NCBI GenBank assembly: GCA_019347855.1
Contig: JAHWKO010000065.1
Location: 1 to 13,570, forward strand
Length of the DNA: 13,570 bases
Origin: Actinomycetota bacterium
GTDB taxonomy: Bacteria > Actinomycetota > Nitriliruptoria > Nitriliruptorales > JAHWKO01
Reading direction: 5' to 3'
Shown: positions 3,767 through 12,731 of the stretch, piece after piece
Layout: every line of letters starts with the position of its first letter
Numbering within the stretch: the first letter of the stretch is position 1
Notes under the pieces: model-generated
Seen by the model: only the letters and a program-made list of their open reading frames with translations
Told to the model about the DNA's origin: nothing
Databases searched by the model: none
Program-made: the position numbers and the translations under genes

Positions 3767-5187
3767 CCACGATCCACACTTCCGACACGGGGGCCCGAAC
3801 CGGAACGATCTCAGGCCAACTGGGAGCGTTCGCGGCTGGTCTGGGGCACGACGAGATCCCGCCCGAGGTCCGCCGACGTGCCAGCTTGCTCGCGCTCGAC
3901 GCAGTGGGCGTCGCCCTTGCCTCAGGGACGTTCGACTTCGCCCGCCGAGCACACGACGCGATCACCCGTCTGACGGGTAAGTCGTCCGGTGACGCCACGG
4001 TCATCGGTAGCTCGGAGCGTCTCCCGCTGCGGGATGCGATGCACCTCAACGGCATCCTGGTACACGGTCTCGACTACGACGACACGCACCCCGGCGGTGT
4101 GATCCACGCCACGTCCAGCGTCTTACCTACCGCACTGGGCGTCGCTGAGGCCCATGCCCTCCCCGGTCGGGAGCTCTTGACCGCTTACATCATCGGCCTC
4201 GAGGTCGCCGCCCGCCTCGGCATCGCCGCTCGCGGGGCGTTCCACCTCGTCGGTTTCCATCCCACCGGCGTTCTCGGCGCGTTCGCCTCCAGCATCGTCG
4301 CGAGTCGCTTGCTTGGCCTGGATCCGTCCCAGATCGCGACCGCCCAGGGGTTCGTCGGCAGCTCGGCCGCAGGATCGTTCGAGTTCCTGGAGACCGGAGC
4401 TTGGACGAAGCGCTCACATCCGGGATGGGCGGCGGTGTGCGGGATGACCGCGGCAGCCTTCGCGGCCGAGGGCTTCGAGAGTCCCCCTAGGATCTACGAG
4501 GGACGGTTCGGCCTGTACGAGAGCCACCTTCAGGGTGACCTCGACGTGGATCTGACCGCTTGTACCGCCGAGCTCGGCGAACGCTGGGAGACCCTCCAGG
4601 TCGCCGTGAAACCCTACCCCGCATGCCACCTGACCCACGCGTTCATCGACGCAGCACTCATACTGCGCGAGCGTTACGGGATCCGGCCGGACGACATCGC
4701 TGACGTGACCTGCCGGATCGCTCCCGGCGAGACCGGCATCGTGTGCGAGCCAGCCGACAGAAAGCGCCGGCCGGGATCGTCCTACGATGCCGCGTTCAGC
4801 CTCCCCTACCTGGTTGCTACCGCTCTCGTCCGGGGGCGTCTGACGCTCGACGAGCTCGATGCCGCCACCCGCGAAGATCCCGAGGTGCAGGCGGTGACGG
4901 ACCGCATCGACTACGAGCCCGACCCCGACAGTGGATACCCGGAGCTGTTCTCGGGCGAACTGGTGATCCGCACACGCGACGGGCAGGAGGTTCGGCACCG
5001 CGAACAGGTCAACCGTGGGGCCGCCGACCGTCCTCTGACGCCGGACGAGATCCACACGAAGTTCCTCGCGAACGCTGCTCACGCTGTACCCCGAGCCGAT
5101 GCGGATAGCATCGCCGATGTCATCCTCAACCTGGACGAGGCGGAGGACGCCCGGACCGTCCTCGCCCAACTGGCCCCAGCCACCTGA
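3763..5187 (+). CDS. MmgE/PrpD family protein
   Basis: This 474-residue protein belongs to the MmgE/PrpD family, which includes 2-methylcitrate dehydratase, cis-aconitate decarboxylase and iminodisuccinate epimerase; members act on di- or tricarboxylic acids without a metal cluster. Family marks seen are HGLDYDDTHPGGVIH (about 101-115), a GFHPTG segment (about 164-169), KRSHPGWAA (about 216-224) in the alpha-helical domain, and KPYPACHLTHAF (about 283-294). The start is ATG at 3763, overlapping the upstream stop as ATGA and preceded by AAGGAG at 3751-3756. The frame stays open far upstream inside the dehydrogenase gene, but that part is only out-of-frame sequence. Whether it dehydrates, decarboxylates or epimerises cannot be told from motifs. 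Lying between an acyl-CoA dehydrogenase and a CoA-transferase, a substrate of the same acid pathway is likely. Confidence 0.9.
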   Translation: MTTIHTSDTGARTGTISGQLGAFAAGLGHDEIPPEVRRRASLLALDAVGVALASGTFDFARRAHDAITRLTGKSSGDATVIGSSERLPLRDAMHLNGILVHGLDYDDTHPGGVIHATSSVLPTALGVAEAHALPGRELLTAYIIGLEVAARLGIAARGAFHLVGFHPTGVLGAFASSIVASRLLGLDPSQIATAQGFVGSSAAGSFEFLETGAWTKRSHPGWAAVCGMTAAAFAAEGFESPPRIYEGRFGLYESHLQGDLDVDLTACTAELGERWETLQVAVKPYPACHLTHAFIDAALILRERYGIRPDDIADVTCRIAPGETGIVCEPADRKRRPGSSYDAAFSLPYLVATALVRGRLTLDELDAATREDPEVQAVTDRIDYEPDPDSGYPELFSGELVIRTRDGQEVRHREQVNRGAADRPLTPDEIHTKFLANAAHAVPRADADSIADVILNLDEAEDARTVLAQLAPAT

Positions 5188-6416
5188 TGGGATCAGCACC
5201 GGATGGTGGACGGACGGTGATCGATGGCGATCCACAGGCGTTGGGTGATGTGCGTGTGGTCGACTGCGCGACACTCTTCGCGGGTCCGACGGTGGCCAGC
5301 CTCCTCGGCGACTTCGGCGCGGACGTCATCAAGGTCGAGCATCCCCGCGGGGACTCCCTCCGGGGCCTGGGATGGAGCAAGGACGGTCAGTCCCTGTGGT
5401 GGCTGCTCACCTCCCGCAACAAGCGCTGCGTAACCCTGGATCTATCGACGAGGCCCGGGCGCGAGGTGATGCTCAGGTTGGCTGCGACCGCCGACGTGCT
5501 CGTCGAGAACTTCCGACCGGGGGTGATGGAGGACTGGGGGCTCGGCCCGTCCGAGTTGCACGCCGCCCACCCTGGTCTGGTCATCGTACGCACCACCGGC
5601 TTCGGACAGACCGGCCCGTACTCGCAGCGCCCCGGGTTCGGCACGCTGGCCGAAGCGATGAGCGGGTTCGCGCACATCAACGGGCACCCCGATGGCCCAC
5701 CCACCCTTCCGCCGTTCGCGCTCGGTGACGGGGTTGCTGGCCTGTTCGGAGCGGTAGCCACGCTCGCCGCGCTACACGAACGCGCGGCTTCCGGCCGCGG
5801 ACAGGTGATCGACCTGTCGATCTACGAACCGCTGTTCTCGCTCCTCGGACCCCAGTCGGTCGTGTACGACCAGCTCGGGATCGTGCAGCGACGCACCGGC
5901 AACCGCGCTCCCTTCACCGCCCCTCGCAACGCCTACTGCACGCGGGACGGGGTGTGGATGGCCCTGTCCGCGAGCGCCCAATCCGTCGCGGAGCGGGTCA
6001 TGCACATCGTGGGCAGGCCCGACATCGTCGACGAGCCCTGGTTCGCGAGCCACCAGGGCCGTCTCGACCACCAGGACGAGCTCGACGCGCTCATCGGGGA
6101 TTGGATCGAACAGCGCGACGCCGCGGACGTGGCGGCCGCCTTCGAGGAGGGCGACGCCGCCATCGCCCCCGTCTACTCGGTCGCGGACACCTTCACCGAC
6201 CCCCAGTACCGCGCCCGGAACACGATCACGATCGTGCCCCACCCGGACCTCGGTGACGTCCGCGTGCCCGACGTCTTCCCCCGTATGTCACGCACCCCCG
6301 GACGCATCCGCCACCTCGGCGGCCGCCTCGGTGAGGCGAACACGGAGGTGTACGTCGACGAGTTGGGCTACAGCCCCAGCGAGCTTGGACGGTGGCACGC
6401 AGACGGCATCGTATGA
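5187..6416 (+). CDS. CaiB/BaiF family (class III) CoA-transferase B
   Basis: This is a second family III CoA-transferase, 409 residues from the ATG at 5187, which shares one base with the preceding TGA. An in-frame GTG at 5217 would give 399 residues and removes a short tail that looks non-homologous, so the start is uncertain. Hallmarks are FAGPTVASLLGDFGADVIKV (about 31-50), SRNKRCVTLDL (about 76-86), LVENFRPGVMEDWGLG (about 105-120), TGFGQTGPYS (about 137-146) and FALGDGVAGLFGA, with the probable catalytic Asp181. It is of a different subgroup from transferases A and C: its active-site stretch reads LGDGVAG rather than VDFSGG or VDHVGG. Having distinct paralogues suggests either several acids or opposite steps (activation and release) in one route. 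Confidence 0.9.
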   Translation: MGSAPDGGRTVIDGDPQALGDVRVVDCATLFAGPTVASLLGDFGADVIKVEHPRGDSLRGLGWSKDGQSLWWLLTSRNKRCVTLDLSTRPGREVMLRLAATADVLVENFRPGVMEDWGLGPSELHAAHPGLVIVRTTGFGQTGPYSQRPGFGTLAEAMSGFAHINGHPDGPPTLPPFALGDGVAGLFGAVATLAALHERAASGRGQVIDLSIYEPLFSLLGPQSVVYDQLGIVQRRTGNRAPFTAPRNAYCTRDGVWMALSASAQSVAERVMHIVGRPDIVDEPWFASHQGRLDHQDELDALIGDWIEQRDAADVAAAFEEGDAAIAPVYSVADTFTDPQYRARNTITIVPHPDLGDVRVPDVFPRMSRTPGRIRHLGGRLGEANTEVYVDELGYSPSELGRWHADGIV

Positions 6417-6427
6417 CAGGAGGCCCC

Positions 6428-7537
6428 ATGAACGACACGGCGCAGACGTCCCGAACCGACGCCCCGCCACGGGACGTGGACCTCGTCGAGTGGTACTACG
6501 AACAGGGTTGGACGGACGGGCTGCCGGTTGTCCCTCCGACCGACGACCGCATCGATGCGATGGTGACCGCGCTGGGCGGCGACCCGGAGCACGTGGAGGG
6601 ACGGGTACCACCCCGGTGGGCGAACCTCACCCGCGAGGTGCTCGCCACGAACATGGTGATGGCAGGCTGTCGACCTGAGTACGGCCCGGTGGTCCGGGCC
6701 GCGCTTCGGGCCCTGTGCGACCCGCACTTCAACCTCAACGGCGTGCAGGCCACCACCCACATGGCCGCCCCACTCATCGTCGTCAACGGACCGGTACGGA
6801 CCGAGATCGGTTTGAACGCGGGCCCGAACGTGTTCGGGTCCGGCTTCAGGGCGAACGCCACCATCGGGCGCGCGATCCGCCTCGTGTTGCTCAACGTGGG
6901 AGGTGGACGTCCTGGCGAACTGGACAAGTCGACGCTGGGCAACCCGTCGAAGTTCTCGTTCTGCATCGCGGAGAACGAGGAGGAGTCGCCGTGGGCCCCC
7001 TACCACGTCGAGAAGGGCTACGACGCGGGGGACTCTACGGTCTTCGCGATCGCCGTGGAAGGCCCTCACAGCGTCACGAACCACGTCTCCGACGACCCAC
7101 AGGGGATCCTGGACAGCATCGCCTCAGCTATGAGCACGTTCGCTCACAACAACGCCGTGACGAGCGGATCGTGCGCCGTGGTCATCGGGCTGGAGCACGC
7201 GACGACGATCGCCGATCACGACTGGAAGAAGAACGACGTCCGTAGCTACCTGTGGATGAACTCGGGCAACCGTTTCGAGGAGATCAGCTTCGGGCACCGG
7301 TACGGGCAGGTGTACAACCGGCACCTCCCGCGCTGGTATCGCCGGGACCCGAACGCGCGGATCCCCATCGTGCCTCGACCGGACGACATACACCTGTTCG
7401 TGGCTGGCGGTGACGCTGGCCGCTTCTCGGCGTTCCTGCCCGGTTGGGGACACATGACCAACCCGGTGTTGCGGGCGCTCGACGGCCGGGAGCCGGCCGG
7501 CGCACCGAACTGCCAGGACGGCAGTTGCCTACTGTGA
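6428..7537 (+). CDS. Conserved protein of unknown function encoded next to the UGSC selenoprotein
   Basis: I do not recognise a characterised family. The 369-residue protein has no signal peptide or membrane segment. It opens with a conserved-looking GWTDGLPVVPPTDDRI (about 27-42). It continues with a central NLNGVQATTHMAAPLIVVNG stretch (about 102-121) and a glycine-rich LNAGPNVFGSGFRANATIGRA (about 129-149), and later FVAGGDAGRFSAFLPGWG (about 324-341). It ends in Cys-Gln-Asp-Gly-Ser-Cys-Leu-Leu, so two cysteines (362 and 367) sit within eight residues of the C-terminus. The start chosen is ATG 6428, after AGGAGG at 6418-6423; ATG 6413, overlapping the upstream stop as ATGA, is a rival adding five residues. 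Only 34 bp separate it from the selenoprotein gene, so a functional partnership is a fair inference. Confidence 0.8.
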   Translation: MNDTAQTSRTDAPPRDVDLVEWYYEQGWTDGLPVVPPTDDRIDAMVTALGGDPEHVEGRVPPRWANLTREVLATNMVMAGCRPEYGPVVRAALRALCDPHFNLNGVQATTHMAAPLIVVNGPVRTEIGLNAGPNVFGSGFRANATIGRAIRLVLLNVGGGRPGELDKSTLGNPSKFSFCIAENEEESPWAPYHVEKGYDAGDSTVFAIAVEGPHSVTNHVSDDPQGILDSIASAMSTFAHNNAVTSGSCAVVIGLEHATTIADHDWKKNDVRSYLWMNSGNRFEEISFGHRYGQVYNRHLPRWYRRDPNARIPIVPRPDDIHLFVAGGDAGRFSAFLPGWGHMTNPVLRALDGREPAGAPNCQDGSCLL

Positions 7538-7571
7538 GAACCGATCCCGTCAACCGGAAAGGACCCGGACG

Positions 7572-8120
7572 ATGACCAGGATGACACTCGAGACCGGACA
7601 GACCGTCTACGACCCCCGCGGCGAGATCGATGCACAGCCTCAGGAGCTCGCGCCACGCCCCCCTTCGCTGAAGGGCGTCCGCGTCGGCGTGCTCGACAAC
7701 TCCAAGTGGAACGCAGGCGCACTTCTACGCCACGTCGTAGAGATGCTGGAGGACGAGGTTGGTCCGTTCGGTGGGGTCACCACGTACAAGAAGGACAGCT
7801 TCTCCAGCAACGCGGCACCCGAGCTGATCGGCCGCATCGCTGCCAAGGAGAGCGTGGTCATCACCGCGATCGGCGATTGAGGGTCGTGCACGTCGTGCTG
7901 TATGCACGACTCCGTGACCTTGGAGAGTCTGGGCATCCCCACCGCCCCGATCGTGACCCGGAACTTCGAGGAGGAGGCACGGGCGCAGCGTGAGGCGCTC
8001 GGGGCCCCGGACCTCGTGCCGGCGCTGATCGATCACCCGTTGAGCACGCTTTCTGACGATCAGATCCGGACGCGAGCCCGGCAGGCGGTCGACCAAGTAC
8101 GCCAGATCCTGAGCCCGTAA
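7572..8120 (+). CDS. UGSC family selenoprotein (TGA at 7878-7880 read as selenocysteine)
   Basis: This is one gene of 182 residues, with selenocysteine at position 103. ATG 7572 follows GGAAAGGA (7556-7563). The frame runs to a TGA at 7878-7880 and continues in the same frame to a TAA at 8118-8120. Around the TGA the protein reads VITAIGD-U-GSCTSCCMHDSVTL; U103-G-S-C106 is the motif that names the UGSC (seleno)protein family, in which Cys replaces Sec in some members. Cys109 and Cys110 add further thiols. Ahead of it LKGVRVGVLDNSKWNAGALL (about 33-52) looks like a first beta-alpha unit; after it LGIPTAPIVT (about 120-129) looks like another strand, so an alpha/beta fold is likely. A Sec-x-x-Cys pair points to redox chemistry, but the family's reaction is not known to me. 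A SECIS-type hairpin lies immediately after the TGA. It is the last gene of the first unit. Confidence 0.9.
7882..7919 (+). promoter_or_regulatory. Bacterial SECIS-like stem-loop after the Sec codon
   Basis: The upper stem is seven perfect pairs: GTCGTGC at 7892-7898 with GCACGAC at 7904-7910, closing a 5-nt loop UGUAU (7899-7903). A lower stem pairs 7882-7888 (GGTCGTG) with 7913-7919 (CGTGACC), two of its seven pairs being G-U. A small internal loop (3 against 2 nt) separates the stems. Exactly 11 nt lie between the TGA and the upper stem, and 18 nt between the TGA and the apical loop. A G is in the first two loop bases, as expected of bacterial SelB-binding elements. No bulged U like that of E. 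coli fdhF is obvious. GTCGTGC occurs twice (7883-7889 and 7892-7898), so an alternative pairing with a 12-nt loop exists. Confidence 0.75.
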
Positions 8121-8177: not shown

Positions 8178-9389
8178 GTGACGACCGCACCCCTCGCGGG
8201 GGTCCGCGTCCTCGAGCTGACGGCCCAACTGTCCGGGCCGTACGCGGCGATGATCCTCGCCGACCTCGGGGCCGACGTCATCAAGATCGAGTCCCCGCGG
8301 CGCCCGGATCCGGCCCGTCGGGTGCCATCCACCCGGATCGACGGCCAGACCACCTATTACCTGAGCCTCAACCGCAACAAGCGTTCGGTTCTGCTCGACC
8401 TCAAGGACCCCGCCGGGAACGACGTCTTCCTACGTCTAGCGGAGCAGGCCGACGTCGTGCTCGACAACTTCCGCCCCGGCGTTACGCAACGTCTCGGCAT
8501 CGATCACGAGACGCTCGTGGAACGCAACGCCGGCATCGTGACCTGCTCCTTGAGCGGTTTCGGTGAGACCGGACCCGACCGCGACCGTCCCGGCTACGAC
8601 TACCTCATGCAGGCGTTGGCGGGGACCATGGACCTCACGGGCGATCCGAACGGCCCGCCGACGAAGTACGGCATCTCGGTGGTCGACCACGTGGGTGGCC
8701 TGTTCGCGGTGATCGCGATCCAGGCAGCGCTCGCCGCGCGAGACCGAGACCCCGACGCCCGGGGGCGACACGTCGATCTCGGGCTGCTCGATACCCACCT
8801 GTCGCTGCTCAGCTACCTGGCCTGCGAGTGGCTGAACGGCGGGGAGCTGCCACGCCGTCAGCGCATGTCCGCCCACCCCCGTCTCGTCGGCAACCAGCTG
8901 TTCCGGACGTCCGACGGCCACGTCGTCGTGATGCCGCTAGCCGACCACTTCTTCGCTCTGATGTGCGACGCGCTGGAGTTGCCCCACCTCGTCGACGACG
9001 CCCGCTTCGCCGACGCGCAGGCGCGCCTGGCCCACCGAGAGGAACTGCTCGACATCCTGGAGCGACGGTTCGCCGATCGCACCACTGGCGAGTGGCTCAA
9101 GGAGCTGACGGCCGCCGGCGTGCCTGCCGCCCCGGTCCAGACGGTCGCCGATGCGCTGGAGATGGAGCAGACCCGCGCCCGCGACATGGTCGTGGAGCTC
9201 AAGCATCCTGAGTACGGCAGCTACCGGATGGTTGGCAACCCGCTGAAGATCTCCGACACGGAACAGCAGTTGGGGCCAGCACCGACCGCGGGCCAGGACA
9301 CGCGCGACGTCCTGACCTCGCTGTCGGGGTTGACCGGCGATGAGATCGACGACCTCGTGGAGCGCGGCGTGTGCGGGGTGCCCTCGTGA
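8178..9389 (+). CDS. CaiB/BaiF family (class III) CoA-transferase C
   Basis: The third family III CoA-transferase of the window has 403 residues. Seen in order: LSGPYAAMILADLGADVIKI (about 18-37), SLNRNKRSVLLDL (about 63-75), VLDNFRPGVTQRLG (about 94-107), LSGFGETGP (about 125-133), YDYLMQALAG (about 140-149) and SVVDHVGGLFA, with the probable catalytic Asp170. The start is GTG at 8178, with GGAGG at 8165-8169. It heads the second unit, after a 57-bp gap with an AT-rich motif. It resembles transferase A (1350-2612) more than B, including the shared SAHPxLV and DG.V segments in the second domain, so A and C look like paralogues used in the same pathway. Its acid substrate is unknown. The stop overlaps the next start as GTGA. 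Confidence 0.92.
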   Translation: MTTAPLAGVRVLELTAQLSGPYAAMILADLGADVIKIESPRRPDPARRVPSTRIDGQTTYYLSLNRNKRSVLLDLKDPAGNDVFLRLAEQADVVLDNFRPGVTQRLGIDHETLVERNAGIVTCSLSGFGETGPDRDRPGYDYLMQALAGTMDLTGDPNGPPTKYGISVVDHVGGLFAVIAIQAALAARDRDPDARGRHVDLGLLDTHLSLLSYLACEWLNGGELPRRQRMSAHPRLVGNQLFRTSDGHVVVMPLADHFFALMCDALELPHLVDDARFADAQARLAHREELLDILERRFADRTTGEWLKELTAAGVPAAPVQTVADALEMEQTRARDMVVELKHPEYGSYRMVGNPLKISDTEQQLGPAPTAGQDTRDVLTSLSGLTGDEIDDLVERGVCGVPS

Positions 9390-10195
9390 GCGCGGCGACC
9401 ATCGGGCCTGCGGTCGAGGGTGTCGTGGTGGAGGTGCGCGGTCCGGTGCTCGAGCTCACCCTGGACCGCCCCGCGCGCCGCAACGCGTTGACGCCCGAGC
9501 TGATAGAGGGCCTGCTCGGGATCCTCGATGAGGCCTCCGGCAACAACGACGTGCGTGCGGTCCTGCTCACGGGCGCCGGGGACCGGGCGTTCTGCGCGGG
9601 CTTCGACATCGGACGGATCGAGAGCCCCGGGGGCCAAGAGGGTGGCAACGAGCGCGACCTGGTCGACGACCTGGCGACGGTCGTCCGCGAGCTACCGCTG
9701 CCGGTGATCGCCGCCGTCAACGGCGCAGCGGTGGGCGCCGGCTGTGACCTGGCCGTGGCCTGCGACATCCGCATCGGCGTCCCGACCGCACGGTTCGGGA
9801 TGCCTCCAGCCCGGCTCGGCCTCCTGTACGGATGGAAGGGCGTCGACCGCCTGGTGCGCACGGTCGGCCTTCCGGCAGCCAAGGAGATGCTCCTGACCGG
9901 TCGTCTCTACGACGCCCAGCGTGCGTACGACGTGGGGCTCCTCAGCGCGATCATCCCCGCCGATGACCTCCTCACCGAAGCACGTGAACTGACCGACACG
10001 ATCGCGTCGAACGCACCCCTGTCGGTCGCCGGCAGCAAGCGGATGGTCGACGTCTTGGCGTCACGCAGCTCCGTCACGGATGAGGAGTTGGACGAGTTCG
10101 CCGCGATCCAGGAGCGGGTGTGGGCGAGCGAGGACGCTACCGAGGGCGCGCGCGCCTACCGAGAGGGCCGTCAGCCACGTTTCAAGGGACGTTGA
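9386..10195 (+). CDS. Enoyl-CoA hydratase/isomerase (crotonase) family protein with altered active site
   Basis: This 269-residue crotonase-fold protein binds acyl-CoA and stabilises an enolate through two backbone amides. The first oxyanion segment is AFCAGFDIG (about 68-76) and the second is AVNGAAVGAGCDLAVACD (about 110-127). Compared with rat crotonase, Glu144 is replaced by Asp121 (GAGCDLA), and the position of Glu164 is Pro141 (GMPPARLG). It therefore lacks the two-glutamate pair needed for standard water addition, and could be a hydrolase, isomerase, decarboxylase or lyase instead. The start is taken as GTG 9386 because of the 4-base GTGA overlap used elsewhere in this cluster; GTG 9371, with GGAG upstream at 9359-9362, would add five residues. 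It is followed 10 bp later by the B12 mutase genes, suggesting it handles the mutase substrate or product. Confidence 0.88.
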   Translation: MSAATIGPAVEGVVVEVRGPVLELTLDRPARRNALTPELIEGLLGILDEASGNNDVRAVLLTGAGDRAFCAGFDIGRIESPGGQEGGNERDLVDDLATVVRELPLPVIAAVNGAAVGAGCDLAVACDIRIGVPTARFGMPPARLGLLYGWKGVDRLVRTVGLPAAKEMLLTGRLYDAQRAYDVGLLSAIIPADDLLTEARELTDTIASNAPLSVAGSKRMVDVLASRSSVTDEELDEFAAIQERVWASEDATEGARAYREGRQPRFKGR

Positions 10196-10205
10196 GGAGA
10201 CACCC

Positions 10206-11801
10206 ATGGAAGACCGAGCGTTCGCCGACCTACCGACCGAGACACCATCGGGGATCCCACTCGACGCCGTCTACGGCCCGTCCGCTGAGGAGCGTCCTGA
10301 CGTTCCCCCACCTGGGGAGGCCCCGTTCACGCGCGGCATCTACCCGACGATGTACCGGGGCCGTCTATGGACGATGCGTCAGTACGCGGGCTTCGGGAGC
10401 CCGGAGGCGACCAACGAGCGCTACCGCTTCCTGCTGGACTCCGGGCAGACCGGGCTGTCCGTCGCCTTCGATCTCCCGAGCCAGATCGGGTACGACTCCG
10501 ACGATCCCGATGCGGAGGAGGAGGTCGGGCGTGTAGGGGTTCCGATCGACACCCTCGCGGACATGGAGATCGTGTTCGATGGGATCCCGCTCGATCGCGT
10601 CTCCACCTCGATGACCATCAACGGGACCGCGTTCATCATGCTCGCGATGTACGTGGCCGTCGCCGAACGACAGGGCGTCCCCTCCGAGCAGATCACCGGC
10701 ACGATCCAGAACGACATCCTCAAGGAGTACGTCGCGCGTGGGACGTGGATCTTCCCGCCCGACCCCTCGCTGCGGCTCATCGTGGACACCATCGAGTGGT
10801 GCGCGGCGAACATGCCGAAATTCAACTCCATCTCGATCAGCGGCTACCACATGCAGGAAGCCGGGGCGACGGCGGTTCAGGAGCTCGCCTTCACCCTCGC
10901 GGACGGGATCGCCTACGTCGAACGCTGTCGCGCGCGCGGGCTCGACCTCGAGCGCATCGGACGGCGTCTGTCGTTCTTCTTCTACACGCACATGGACCTG
11001 TTCGAGGAGATCGCCAAGTACCGTGCGGGGCGTCGGCTCTGGGCGCGGATCATGCGTGACCGCTTCGGTGTCACCGACCCGAAGGCGATGATGTTCAGGA
11101 CCGGTGTGGTCTGCGGCGGTAGCTCGCTCACCGCGGAGCAGCCGCGGAACAACATCATCCGCGTCGCCTACGAGGCGCTGGCTGCGGTCCTCGGAGGTGT
11201 CCAATCCGTGTTCACCTGCGCGTGGGACGAAGCTCTGACCCTGCCCTCCGAGGAGACCGCCGAACTCGCGCTGCGGACCCAGCAGATCCTCGCATTCGAG
11301 ACCGGGGTACCAGCGGTGGCAGATCCGCTTGGAGGTTCTTGGTTCGTCGAAGATCTCACGACCCGGTTCGAGGAGGCGACCGAGAAGCTCATCGCAGAGA
11401 TCGACGAACGCGGTGGCATGGTCGCCTGCATCGAGGACGGCTGGGTGCAATCCTGCATCAGCAGCGAGGCCTACGACCAGCAGCGCCGGATCGAGTCAGG
11501 GGACCGTCCCGTCGTCGGGGTGAACATCTTCCGCAAAGAGGACGAGGACCGCAGGGTCGAGTACTACCAGACCTCCGAGGAGGACCTGGCCCGTCAGCGC
11601 CGGCGGCTCGACGACGTTCGTCAGCGTCGCGACGACGCTGAGGTCGCGTCCACGCTCGAACGGTTACACGAGGGAGCCGAGGGCGACGCGAACCTCGTCC
11701 CTCTGCTGATCGACTGCGTGAAGGCGTACTGCACGGTCGGGGAGATCACCCACACGTTGCGTGACGTCTTCGGCGAGTTCCACGAACCGCTCGTGATCTG
11801 A
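10206..11801 (+). CDS. B12-dependent acyl-CoA mutase, large (substrate-binding) subunit, methylmalonyl-CoA mutase family
   Basis: This 531-residue protein matches the TIM-barrel half of methylmalonyl-CoA mutase; the B12 domain is a separate gene just downstream. Against P. freudenreichii (shermanii) enzyme numbering, TMYRGRLWTMRQYAGF (about 48-63) keeps Thr85 (Thr56) and Tyr89 (Tyr60). GTIQND keeps Thr195 and Gln197 (Thr166, Gln168). EYVARGTWIFPP keeps Arg207 (Arg178), and SISGYHMQEAG keeps His244 (His215). Tyr89 plus Arg207 is the methylmalonyl-CoA pair; isobutyryl-CoA mutases have Phe and Gln. In contrast the adenosyl-ribose loop is changed: His328 becomes Gly300, Gln330 becomes Val302 and Asn366 becomes Cys338, while Glu370 is kept as Glu342. 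A carboxylated acyl-CoA is the likely substrate, not necessarily methylmalonyl-CoA. Start ATG 10206 follows GAGGAG at 10194-10199. Confidence 0.9.
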   Translation: MEDRAFADLPTETPSGIPLDAVYGPSAEERPDVPPPGEAPFTRGIYPTMYRGRLWTMRQYAGFGSPEATNERYRFLLDSGQTGLSVAFDLPSQIGYDSDDPDAEEEVGRVGVPIDTLADMEIVFDGIPLDRVSTSMTINGTAFIMLAMYVAVAERQGVPSEQITGTIQNDILKEYVARGTWIFPPDPSLRLIVDTIEWCAANMPKFNSISISGYHMQEAGATAVQELAFTLADGIAYVERCRARGLDLERIGRRLSFFFYTHMDLFEEIAKYRAGRRLWARIMRDRFGVTDPKAMMFRTGVVCGGSSLTAEQPRNNIIRVAYEALAAVLGGVQSVFTCAWDEALTLPSEETAELALRTQQILAFETGVPAVADPLGGSWFVEDLTTRFEEATEKLIAEIDERGGMVACIEDGWVQSCISSEAYDQQRRIESGDRPVVGVNIFRKEDEDRRVEYYQTSEEDLARQRRRLDDVRQRRDDAEVASTLERLHEGAEGDANLVPLLIDCVKAYCTVGEITHTLRDVFGEFHEPLVI

Positions 11802-11808
11802 GGGAGCC

Positions 11809-12231
11809 ATGGAGCGCGTACGTATCCTCATCGCCAAACCGGGGCTCGACGGCCACGACCGCGGTGCGAAGGTCGTGGCCCGAGCACTGCGTGACGCCGG
11901 GATGGAGGTGGTCTACCTCGGCCTGCGCAACACGCCTAGACAGATCGCCGCCGCCGCTGTCCAGGAGGATGTCGATGCCGTCGGCCTATCGGTGCTGTCG
12001 GGGTCGCACCTGCCTCTGGCGCGCAAGATGCTCGCCGCCCTCGAGGAGCAGAACGCCGCGGACATCCCGGTCGTGCTCGGCGGGACGGTGCCTCCCGAGG
12101 ACGTGCCGGTCCTCCTCGAGATGGGGATCGGGGCCGTCCTCCCCACCTCGACGCCACTCGACGACGTGGTGGCAGCCGTACGGCGGGCCGTCGACAGCAG
12201 CACCGCCTCCCCTGCCGAGAAGCCCCGATGA
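11809..12231 (+). CDS. B12-binding small subunit of the acyl-CoA mutase
   Basis: This 140-residue stand-alone cobalamin-binding domain resembles the C-terminal domain of methylmalonyl-CoA mutase. LIAKPGLDGHDRGAKVVARA (about 7-26) contains the DxHxxG motif with His16, the residue expected to replace dimethylbenzimidazole as the lower cobalt ligand. The SVLSGSH segment (about 61-67) and VLGGTVPPED (about 89-98) are the usual nucleotide-tail binding parts. The gene begins 7 bp after the large subunit, with a short-spaced AGGGAG at 11801-11806, and its end overlaps the next start as ATGA. The two subunits should form the active mutase, as in split archaeal and actinobacterial enzymes. The last ten or so residues are Ser/Pro-rich and probably disordered. 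Confidence 0.93.
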   Translation: MERVRILIAKPGLDGHDRGAKVVARALRDAGMEVVYLGLRNTPRQIAAAAVQEDVDAVGLSVLSGSHLPLARKMLAALEEQNAADIPVVLGGTVPPEDVPVLLEMGIGAVLPTSTPLDDVVAAVRRAVDSSTASPAEKPR

Positions 12232-12731
12232 CGCAACGGATCGAACACGACTGGCAGGGACGTTTCTTCGAGGATCTCGAGGTCGGGACCACGTACGAGC
12301 ACGCGGGCGGGAGGACCGTCGATGCGACGGACAACGCCTGGTTCACACTGCTGACGAACAACACGAACGAACTGCACTACAACACCGAGTACGCCCGGGG
12401 CGGGATCCACGGCCGCCGCCTGGTCAACTCGTGCCTGACGCTGTCGATCGTCACGGGGCTCACCGTGACCGGGATCAGCCGCAACGCGGCAGCCAACCTG
12501 GGTTGGGATGACGTGCGGCTCCCCGCGCCGGTGTTCGAGGGGGACACCCTGCGGGCGCGAACGACTGTCCTCGATAAGCGCCCCTCGCGATCGCGTCCGA
12601 ACACTGGGATCGTGCAGGTCCGCACCGAGGGCTACAAGCAGGACGGCACGGTCGTCATCGCGTTCGACCGGGCCATCCTGGTCTACACGCGAGACGGCGC
12701 ACCGCAGACGGGCGAGGACATCGGAGACTGA
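12228..12731 (+). CDS. MaoC family (hot-dog fold) acyl-CoA dehydratase/hydratase
   Basis: This 167-residue hot-dog protein resembles the MaoC/R-specific enoyl-CoA hydratase family, closest in feel to mesaconyl- or beta-methylmalyl-CoA hydratases. FFEDLEVGTTYEHAGGRTV (about 13-31) opens the domain, and the hydratase-2 region reads TNNTNELHYN (about 43-52). Aligned with the classic GDxNPxH motif, the catalytic aspartate position is Asn45, while Asn47 and His50 are kept. NLGWDDVRLPAPVFEGDTL (about 90-108) and SRSRPNTGIVQVRTEGYKQ (about 120-138) are typical later segments. It begins within an ATGA overlap with the B12 subunit gene and ends the second unit. It would hydrate an unsaturated (di)carboxylyl-CoA, or remove water from a hydroxyacyl-CoA, in the mutase pathway; the direction is not deducible. 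Confidence 0.87.
   Translation: MTQRIEHDWQGRFFEDLEVGTTYEHAGGRTVDATDNAWFTLLTNNTNELHYNTEYARGGIHGRRLVNSCLTLSIVTGLTVTGISRNAAANLGWDDVRLPAPVFEGDTLRARTTVLDKRPSRSRPNTGIVQVRTEGYKQDGTVVIAFDRAILVYTRDGAPQTGEDIGD

Follow-up and report, generated by a model that had tools for sequence, protein, structure and literature searches.

The TGA codon at position 7878 is almost certainly decoded as selenocysteine (Sec), which would give a selenoprotein of 182 residues belonging to the UGSC family. We further propose that this protein works, as the catalytic half of a two-part enzyme, together with the product of the gene upstream of it and is distantly related to GrdB, the selenoprotein B of glycine reductase. Taken as a whole (Sec, two-part enzyme and relationship to GrdB, with the bond-cleavage step left out) this reading is likely. 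The window, as we call the whole stretch of DNA analysed, is 13,570 nucleotides long, and the features discussed here lie on its forward strand:

5187–6416 (+), CoA-transferase family III, 5' of the pair (Pfam, NCBIfam)
6428–7537 (+), partner gene, 369 residues, without a Pfam or NCBIfam match, 5' of the UGSC gene and fused to it in some genomes (locus survey, profile searches)
7511–7528 (+), codons of the partner's C-terminal CQDGSC tail with Cys362 and Cys367 (alignment of partner rows)
7556–7563 (+), possible ribosome-binding site of the UGSC gene, GGAAAGGA (assigned by eye)
7572–8120 (+), UGSC selenoprotein gene, TGA read as Sec, 182 residues (translation, NF041046 and PF24696 matches)
7878–7880 (+), in-frame TGA, putative Sec103 codon of the U-x-x-C-x-x-C-C motif (sequence, TGA of homologues)
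7892–7910 (+), bacterial-type SECIS hairpin GUCGUGC-UGUAU-GCACGAC, 7 bp, 5-nt loop with a G (folding, pair counts, codon use)
7902–8120 (+), ORF of 72 residues 3' of the TGA, reportable by a gene caller but not a separate gene (homologues are one chain)
8178–9389 (+), CoA-transferase family III, 3' of the pair (Pfam, NCBIfam)
9371–12731 (+), acyl-CoA unit: enoyl-CoA hydratase, two-piece B12-dependent acyl-CoA mutase, MaoC hydratase (Pfam, NCBIfam, homologues)

The frame starts with ATG at 7572, runs for 102 codons to the TGA at 7878–7880 and continues for 79 codons to TAA at 8118–8120, exactly as an earlier note on this DNA had read it. Read-through places U103 in AIGD-U-GSCTSCCMHDS. The same note had assigned the product to the UGSC family, and the 182-residue product exceeded both family cut-offs: it scored 145.9 bits against a cut-off of 125 with NCBIfam NF041046 ('UGSC family (seleno)protein', residues 35–180) and 189.6 bits against a cut-off of 25 with Pfam PF24696 (residues 12–180). 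Both alignments extend across the TGA and cover its two flanks. Codon 103, the TGA, is followed by GSC and so falls on the leading residue of the U/C-G-S-C motif, where the family has Sec or Cys. Judged by these matches the read-through product is a UGSC family member, and nothing was found against its membership.

A protein search returned 572 homologues, 120 of which were listed. In 118 of these 120 a single chain carries Cys at the Sec position; a comparison with UGSC proteins was the check that the earlier note had proposed. The remaining two, close to the protein of the window (P0002 90%, P0051 82% over the part present), are stubs of 102 residues which stop exactly at the TGA, and here the predicted truncation by gene callers can be seen directly. 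Cys forms thus dominate the listed proteins, though databases truncate Sec forms.

We also scanned genome contigs and took the best 80 of 169 relatives as loci. TGA stands at the codon for residue 103 in all 82 homologous matches that cover the site, a count which overstates the share of TGA because the scan patterns included the Sec-type peptide CTSCCMHD and favoured Sec-type genes. A second search was therefore made without such a filter. It covered 142 genomes from the class of host G024, which itself came from the first scan, and used a profile built from both Sec and Cys forms. All 31 UGSC matches, found in 14 of the 142 genomes, had exactly one in-frame stop, and it was TGA; its position at the motif was confirmed in the 20 matches whose loci were fetched. 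The frame around TGA 7878 is conserved, a SECIS-type hairpin accompanies the codon, and among the relatives fetched TGA at this codon is the rule.

The codon might be a true stop or a nonsense mutation, so that the gene is decaying or two proteins of 102 and 72 residues are made. The 102-residue stub in the gene calls of relatives and the ORF of 72 residues that begins at 7902 speak for it, but the recurrence of TGA in every homologous place, its single occurrence in each class-sample match, the conserved hairpin and the homologues that form one chain with Cys at the site make it very improbable. We give even less weight to a reassignment of TGA to another amino acid in this organism. One in-frame TGA read through would fit it; however, TGA ends 11 of the 13 genes read in the window and the sole internal one is that of the UGSC gene, so TGA is an ordinary stop in the window and the standard code applies.

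The bacterial SECIS is described as a hairpin just 3' of the UGA with a small apical loop containing a G (PMC1088965). In the window we found a 12-nt spacer, a 7-bp stem and the loop UGUAU. The conserved 6-bp core (7893–7909) begins 12 nt after the TGA, and RNAalifold, run on 77 distinct sequences, returned a single hairpin UCGUGC-UGUAU-GCAYGA, again 12 nt 3' of the TGA. In the window and its 82 matches standard pairs occupied 497 of 498 pair cells, and all six pairs were present in 82 of the 83 sequences. When the 3' arm was slid by one to three columns as a control, only 1 to 248 of the 498 cells paired. The hairpin stretch of the window folds at -19.5 kcal/mol (z -2.96), and 2 of 200 shuffles were as good.

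The codons tell the same story. Compared with pooled codon use, and with relatedness ignored, Ser108 is TCG in 77 of 79 sequences (p 5e-32), Cys109 is TGC in 79 of 79 (p 3e-15) and Cys110 is TGT in 79 of 79 (p 4e-37) despite TGT being the minor codon. For the other conserved UGSC codons the lowest p was 6e-14, at Ser105, two codons past the TGA; for the most fixed codon of the partner gene it was 3e-10 (the same comparison, relatedness ignored in both cases). A second, paralogous copy at locus L063 keeps the stem with a C-G pair swapped to G-C, while four fused genes have a different stem, CCCGC/GCGGG, spaced from the TGA as in the unfused genes. The hairpin site was found by motif search in 19 of 20 class-sample loci, with six pairs in 14 and five pairs in 5. 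Met-His after the Cys pair occurs in none of the 118 Cys homologues, which mostly have Ile/Val-Arg there; this suggests that the RNA is part of the reason for Met-His in the Sec genes. An Rfam search gave no RNA family match at the hairpin.

Next, the Sec machinery was looked for in 40 host genomes (those of the first 40 loci out of 80) and in 14 control genomes. SelB scored over the cut-off in 36 of the 40 host genomes and in 2 of the 14 controls. A tRNA-Sec of at least 65 bits was present in 36 of the 40 hosts; the gathering score for tRNA-Sec is lax, and 5 of the 14 controls pass it. In four hosts SelB was below the cut-off, and three of these (G004, G020, G040) are also without a clear tRNA-Sec. 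In the class sample SelB was found in 13 of the 14 genomes with UGSC compared with 6 of the 128 without it; it was not found in G060, which has four UGSC places. When ten chosen neighbours were looked at, sel genes lay near the UGSC-partner pair in at least 6 of the 80 loci: selA and then selB next downstream of the pair (L074, L075), selB downstream of it (L068), selB next upstream of the partner gene (L046, L049) and a SelD fusion next downstream (L013). The TGA in all 82 places, the hairpin and the machinery of the relatives agree with the selenoprotein proposed in the earlier note.

The steadiest neighbour of UGSC is the partner gene, to which that note made no reference. Searched against Pfam and NCBIfam it gave no match even at E 10, and its relatives in the protein database number at least 7804. 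In 78 of 80 loci it precedes UGSC on the same strand, and in 77 of these 78 the spacing of the two ORFs is between -20 and 233 nt; in L069 they overlap with an apparent frameshift, and in several loci the contig starts inside the partner. Of the two loci without it, L064 lies on a contig that begins within UGSC, and L079 is matched only in part. Across L001–L063 the partner is conserved at 60–75% and UGSC at 50–60%. In the class sample the partner is present in the same 14 of 142 genomes as UGSC (Fisher p 1e-19, relatedness ignored).

Four of these 14 genomes (L152–L155) have one Sec-type frame of about 590 codons, in which a UGSC domain with the TGA is followed by a partner domain. The fused set reached 99.0% with the UGSC profile and 100% with the partner profile (E 1e-47), and its UGSC forms are without C109. 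It may be the 'UGSC/Unknown_1' fusion of the GOS paper (PMC2398784). From gene order, co-occurrence and these fusions, which suggest physical contact, we consider it very probable that UGSC and the protein encoded at 6428–7537 make up a two-subunit enzyme.

In the partner, C81 is present in 52 of 53 rows and C179 in 47 of 53. Both Cys of the CxDGxC-type tail occur in 39 of 39 main-clade rows and in 0 of 14 distal rows, and three other partner paralogues end in a CxDC tail. An additional partner-like match lies beside the fused gene in L152–L155 (rows G024:C41, G102:C73, G116:C118, G106:C1), and tandem pairs of partner-like matches were seen elsewhere, for example in G060:C14, G142:C2 and G115:C1. 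UGSC and its partner seem to exist both as two-part and as three-part systems. UGSC paralogues number up to five per genome (G129), with four in each of G024 and G060, and each has one in-frame TGA. So many paralogues per genome suggest substrate diversification.

In anaerobic bacteria, selenium enzymes of the GrdB kind break down glycine and proline. The three weak NCBIfam matches of UGSC fell at one place and were to PrdB (E 0.036), GrdB (E 0.1) and GrdF (E 0.16). They are far below the family cut-offs (13.5 of 300 bits for TIGR04483 and 11.4 of 602.2 bits for TIGR01917), and PF07355 did not match UGSC up to E 10. We therefore compared profiles. PF07355 proteins were collected from 25 host genomes, 23 of which had a match, and in 30 of 30 loci fetched a TGA stands at the end of the PF07355 match, the expected place of the Sec codon. 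By hhalign, UGSC (62 rows) against eight GrdB-type proteins gave 89–91% with E 1-2e-6 (a single comparison) and with Sec aligned on Sec, compared with at most 0.6% in 20 column shuffles and 0.2% for the reversed profile. With the motif masked the value was still 61.9%, and the part behind the motif alone gave 76.9%. Adding more paralogues, or using a joint GrdB and PrdB-like set, gave 88–90% (30 shuffles, at most 0.4%); the UGSC paralogues alone gave 80.7–87% and the fused forms 88–92% against GrdB. Against the PrdB-like set alone, UGSC reached 5–16% and the fused forms 58.9%.

In the alignment with L081, UGSCTSCC falls on UGTCTRCG and HPLS on HPLG. GrdB is said to act through a U-x-x-C-x-x-C motif (PMC13188914), and the window's UGSC has it as U103, C106 and C109. 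This is a weak criterion for GrdB, since L081 is the only one of the eight GrdB-type rows with both Cys; the other seven have Ser or Gly.

UGSC resembles GrdB, selenoprotein B of glycine, sarcosine or betaine reductase (PF07355, TIGR01917), in the aligned Sec, in a similar helix and strand behind it (LExxGIPT) and in gene order: its partner gene directly precedes it, and grdE directly precedes grdB at all nine PF09338 places found. It differs in being the Sec domain only, with 182 residues compared with about 440 in GrdB, and in its partner: this gave 0.1–0.2% with the GrdE set by profile, no detectable relationship, and no Pfam match to PF09338 (GrdE/PrdA-like subunit) up to E 10. GrdA, GrdC and GrdD are the parts of the glycine reductase system that pass on the acetyl group, and none was among the genes of the window annotated with Pfam and NCBIfam. 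Like PrdB of D-proline reductase (TIGR04483), UGSC is a small Sec subunit and matches it weakly, but it remains far below the TIGR04483 cut-off and UGSC alone has little similarity to the PrdB-like set. FarB/FarE of the fluoroacetate reductase operon of Synergistota also combine a GrdB-like Sec subunit with a second subunit; in the account given there farE is a grdE homologue (PMC10838667), whereas the UGSC partner is not, and no link to fluoride is shown for UGSC. On the profile comparison, common ancestry is well supported, and UGSC would be a pared-down form of GrdB's Sec-bearing catalytic domain.

PrdB-like selenoproteins, with a PF07355 match and mostly with U-P-x-C, occur in many UGSC hosts (L087–L103, L107–L110), and one genome (G047) has up to eight PF07355 matches.

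The AlphaFold2 model of UGSC, made with Cys at 103 (pLDDT 91.7), has an alternating five-strand alpha/beta fold in which residue 103 lies between the third strand (95–99) and helix 108–119. This predicted fold does not clearly correspond to the thioredoxin-like fold that was considered likely in 2008. A fold-library search had no thioredoxin among the matches listed, a result which does not exclude a thioredoxin topology. These data bear on another possibility, in line with the 2008 description of the family: UGSC, though a selenoprotein, could be a thiol-redox protein of a general kind, similar to thioredoxin or peroxiredoxin, with the partner as its substrate or reductant. The GOS paper of 2008 deems a thioredoxin-like fold likely (PMC2398784), U-x-x-C is a common redox motif and Cys tails occur in several clades of the partner. 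On the other hand, the model predicts a five-strand alternating beta-alpha fold, the profile similarity to GrdB outlasts masking of the motif, and carbon-catabolism neighbours recur (CoA-transferase III, acyl-CoA dehydrogenase, UbiD, amidase, TctC), each in a minority of loci. We regard the thiol-redox role as rather unlikely. The earlier description of UGSC as a Sec-x-x-Cys redox protein is probably too generic: among known proteins, the nearest relative found is GrdB with its catalytic domain.

The window holds, on one strand, three CoA-transferases III, an acyl-CoA dehydrogenase, an MmgE/PrpD-like protein, hydratases and a B12 mutase, which suggests a catabolic acid as the substrate. The placement in an acyl-CoA catabolic unit, put forward earlier as a clue to the role of the family, recurs elsewhere without being constant: of the 80 loci, 12 have a CoA-transferase III match directly 3' of UGSC and on its strand (6 of them are near-duplicate Nitrospinota-type contigs), and 3 have an acyl-CoA dehydrogenase match in that place. 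A Pfam scan of the next genes (n=72) found TctC six times, CoA-transferase III five times and acyl-CoA dehydrogenase twice, and among the previous genes (n=65) UbiD four times. Since the neighbours vary so widely they do not indicate a single substrate, and substrates probably differ between paralogues.

The two-piece B12-dependent acyl-CoA mutase at 10200–12231 keeps the Tyr and Arg that we take to mark methylmalonyl-type rather than isobutyryl-type enzymes. Its nearest named relatives are actinobacterial, from Egibacteraceae (79%), Euzebyales (74%) and Blastococcus (73%), and the window is probably from an actinobacterium. Relatives of the partner and of the mutase come from contigs that agree in length and source (P0130/P0244, 131329 bases; P0126/P0248, 12240 bases), and the 91% partner and the 90% UGSC stub agree likewise (P0122/P0002, 2663 bases); judged by these lengths, the clusters may be conserved. 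Ahead of the acyl-CoA unit, on the same strand, lies a DJ-1/PfpI domain protein (700–1299) which matches the N-terminal part of FtrA-type regulators. Five loci (L031, L035, L038, L042, L049) come from MAG records titled Bordetella parapertussis or Klebsiella pneumoniae; they resemble the UGSC loci of environmental betaproteobacteria, and the titles are probably misassigned.

By analogy with GrdB-type proteins, UGSC and its partner could carry out reductive cleavage of a carbon-heteroatom bond, a step to which we give an even chance. For one GrdB-like pair, the proposal is that a selenolate attack breaks the C-F bond in fluoroacetate (PMC10838667). In line with what has been proposed for proteins of the GrdB type, the U103 selenolate would attack the polarised carbon of an acid bound with the partner and break this carbon's bond to N, O, S or halogen. 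The selenium intermediate may then be resolved by Cys106 (and by Cys109 in proteins that have it) and would be reduced by the partner's CxDGxC tail, where present, or by a cellular dithiol. In this window the acid formed could enter the surrounding route of CoA-transferase, hydratase and B12 mutase.

UGSC was already known as a selenoprotein family, with 255 Sec and 21 Cys forms in GOS (PMC2398784) and 8.2% of the selenoprotein genes of a later aquatic set (PMC9402790), and by these two sources it is among the most abundant selenoproteins of aquatic samples. A 2026 review counts it among the selenoproteins with largely uncharacterised functions (PMC13188914). In the portion of the selenium literature mentioning UGSC that our survey covered, no link between UGSC and GrdB was found, and the fused domain (Unknown_1) appeared only in the GOS paper (PMC2398784). 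As far as that literature goes, the constant partner gene, the relationship to GrdB and the recurrent catabolic setting are new, and the UGSC-partner fusion may already have been seen in 2008.

UGSC and its partner may represent an undescribed selenoenzyme class, a possibility we hold tentatively and at slightly less than even chances. In such a class a shrunken GrdB domain, with a new partner in place of GrdE, would be spread over several phyla with many paralogues per genome, and would perform glycine-reductase-type cleavage (C-N, C-O, C-S, C-halogen) in ordinary acyl-CoA catabolism and not in Stickland fermentation. With the constant partner, the fusions and the link to GrdB, one can now ask specifically which substrate the pair cleaves. 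The records of some loci carry strain names (L024, Vineibacter terrae; L044, Reyranella; L068 and L075, Noviherbaspirillum), and as these hosts are presumably in culture, a knock-out or a purification of the pair would be feasible there. If the selenoenzyme class is real, it would mean that glycine-reductase-type chemistry has been carried into ordinary acyl-CoA catabolism.
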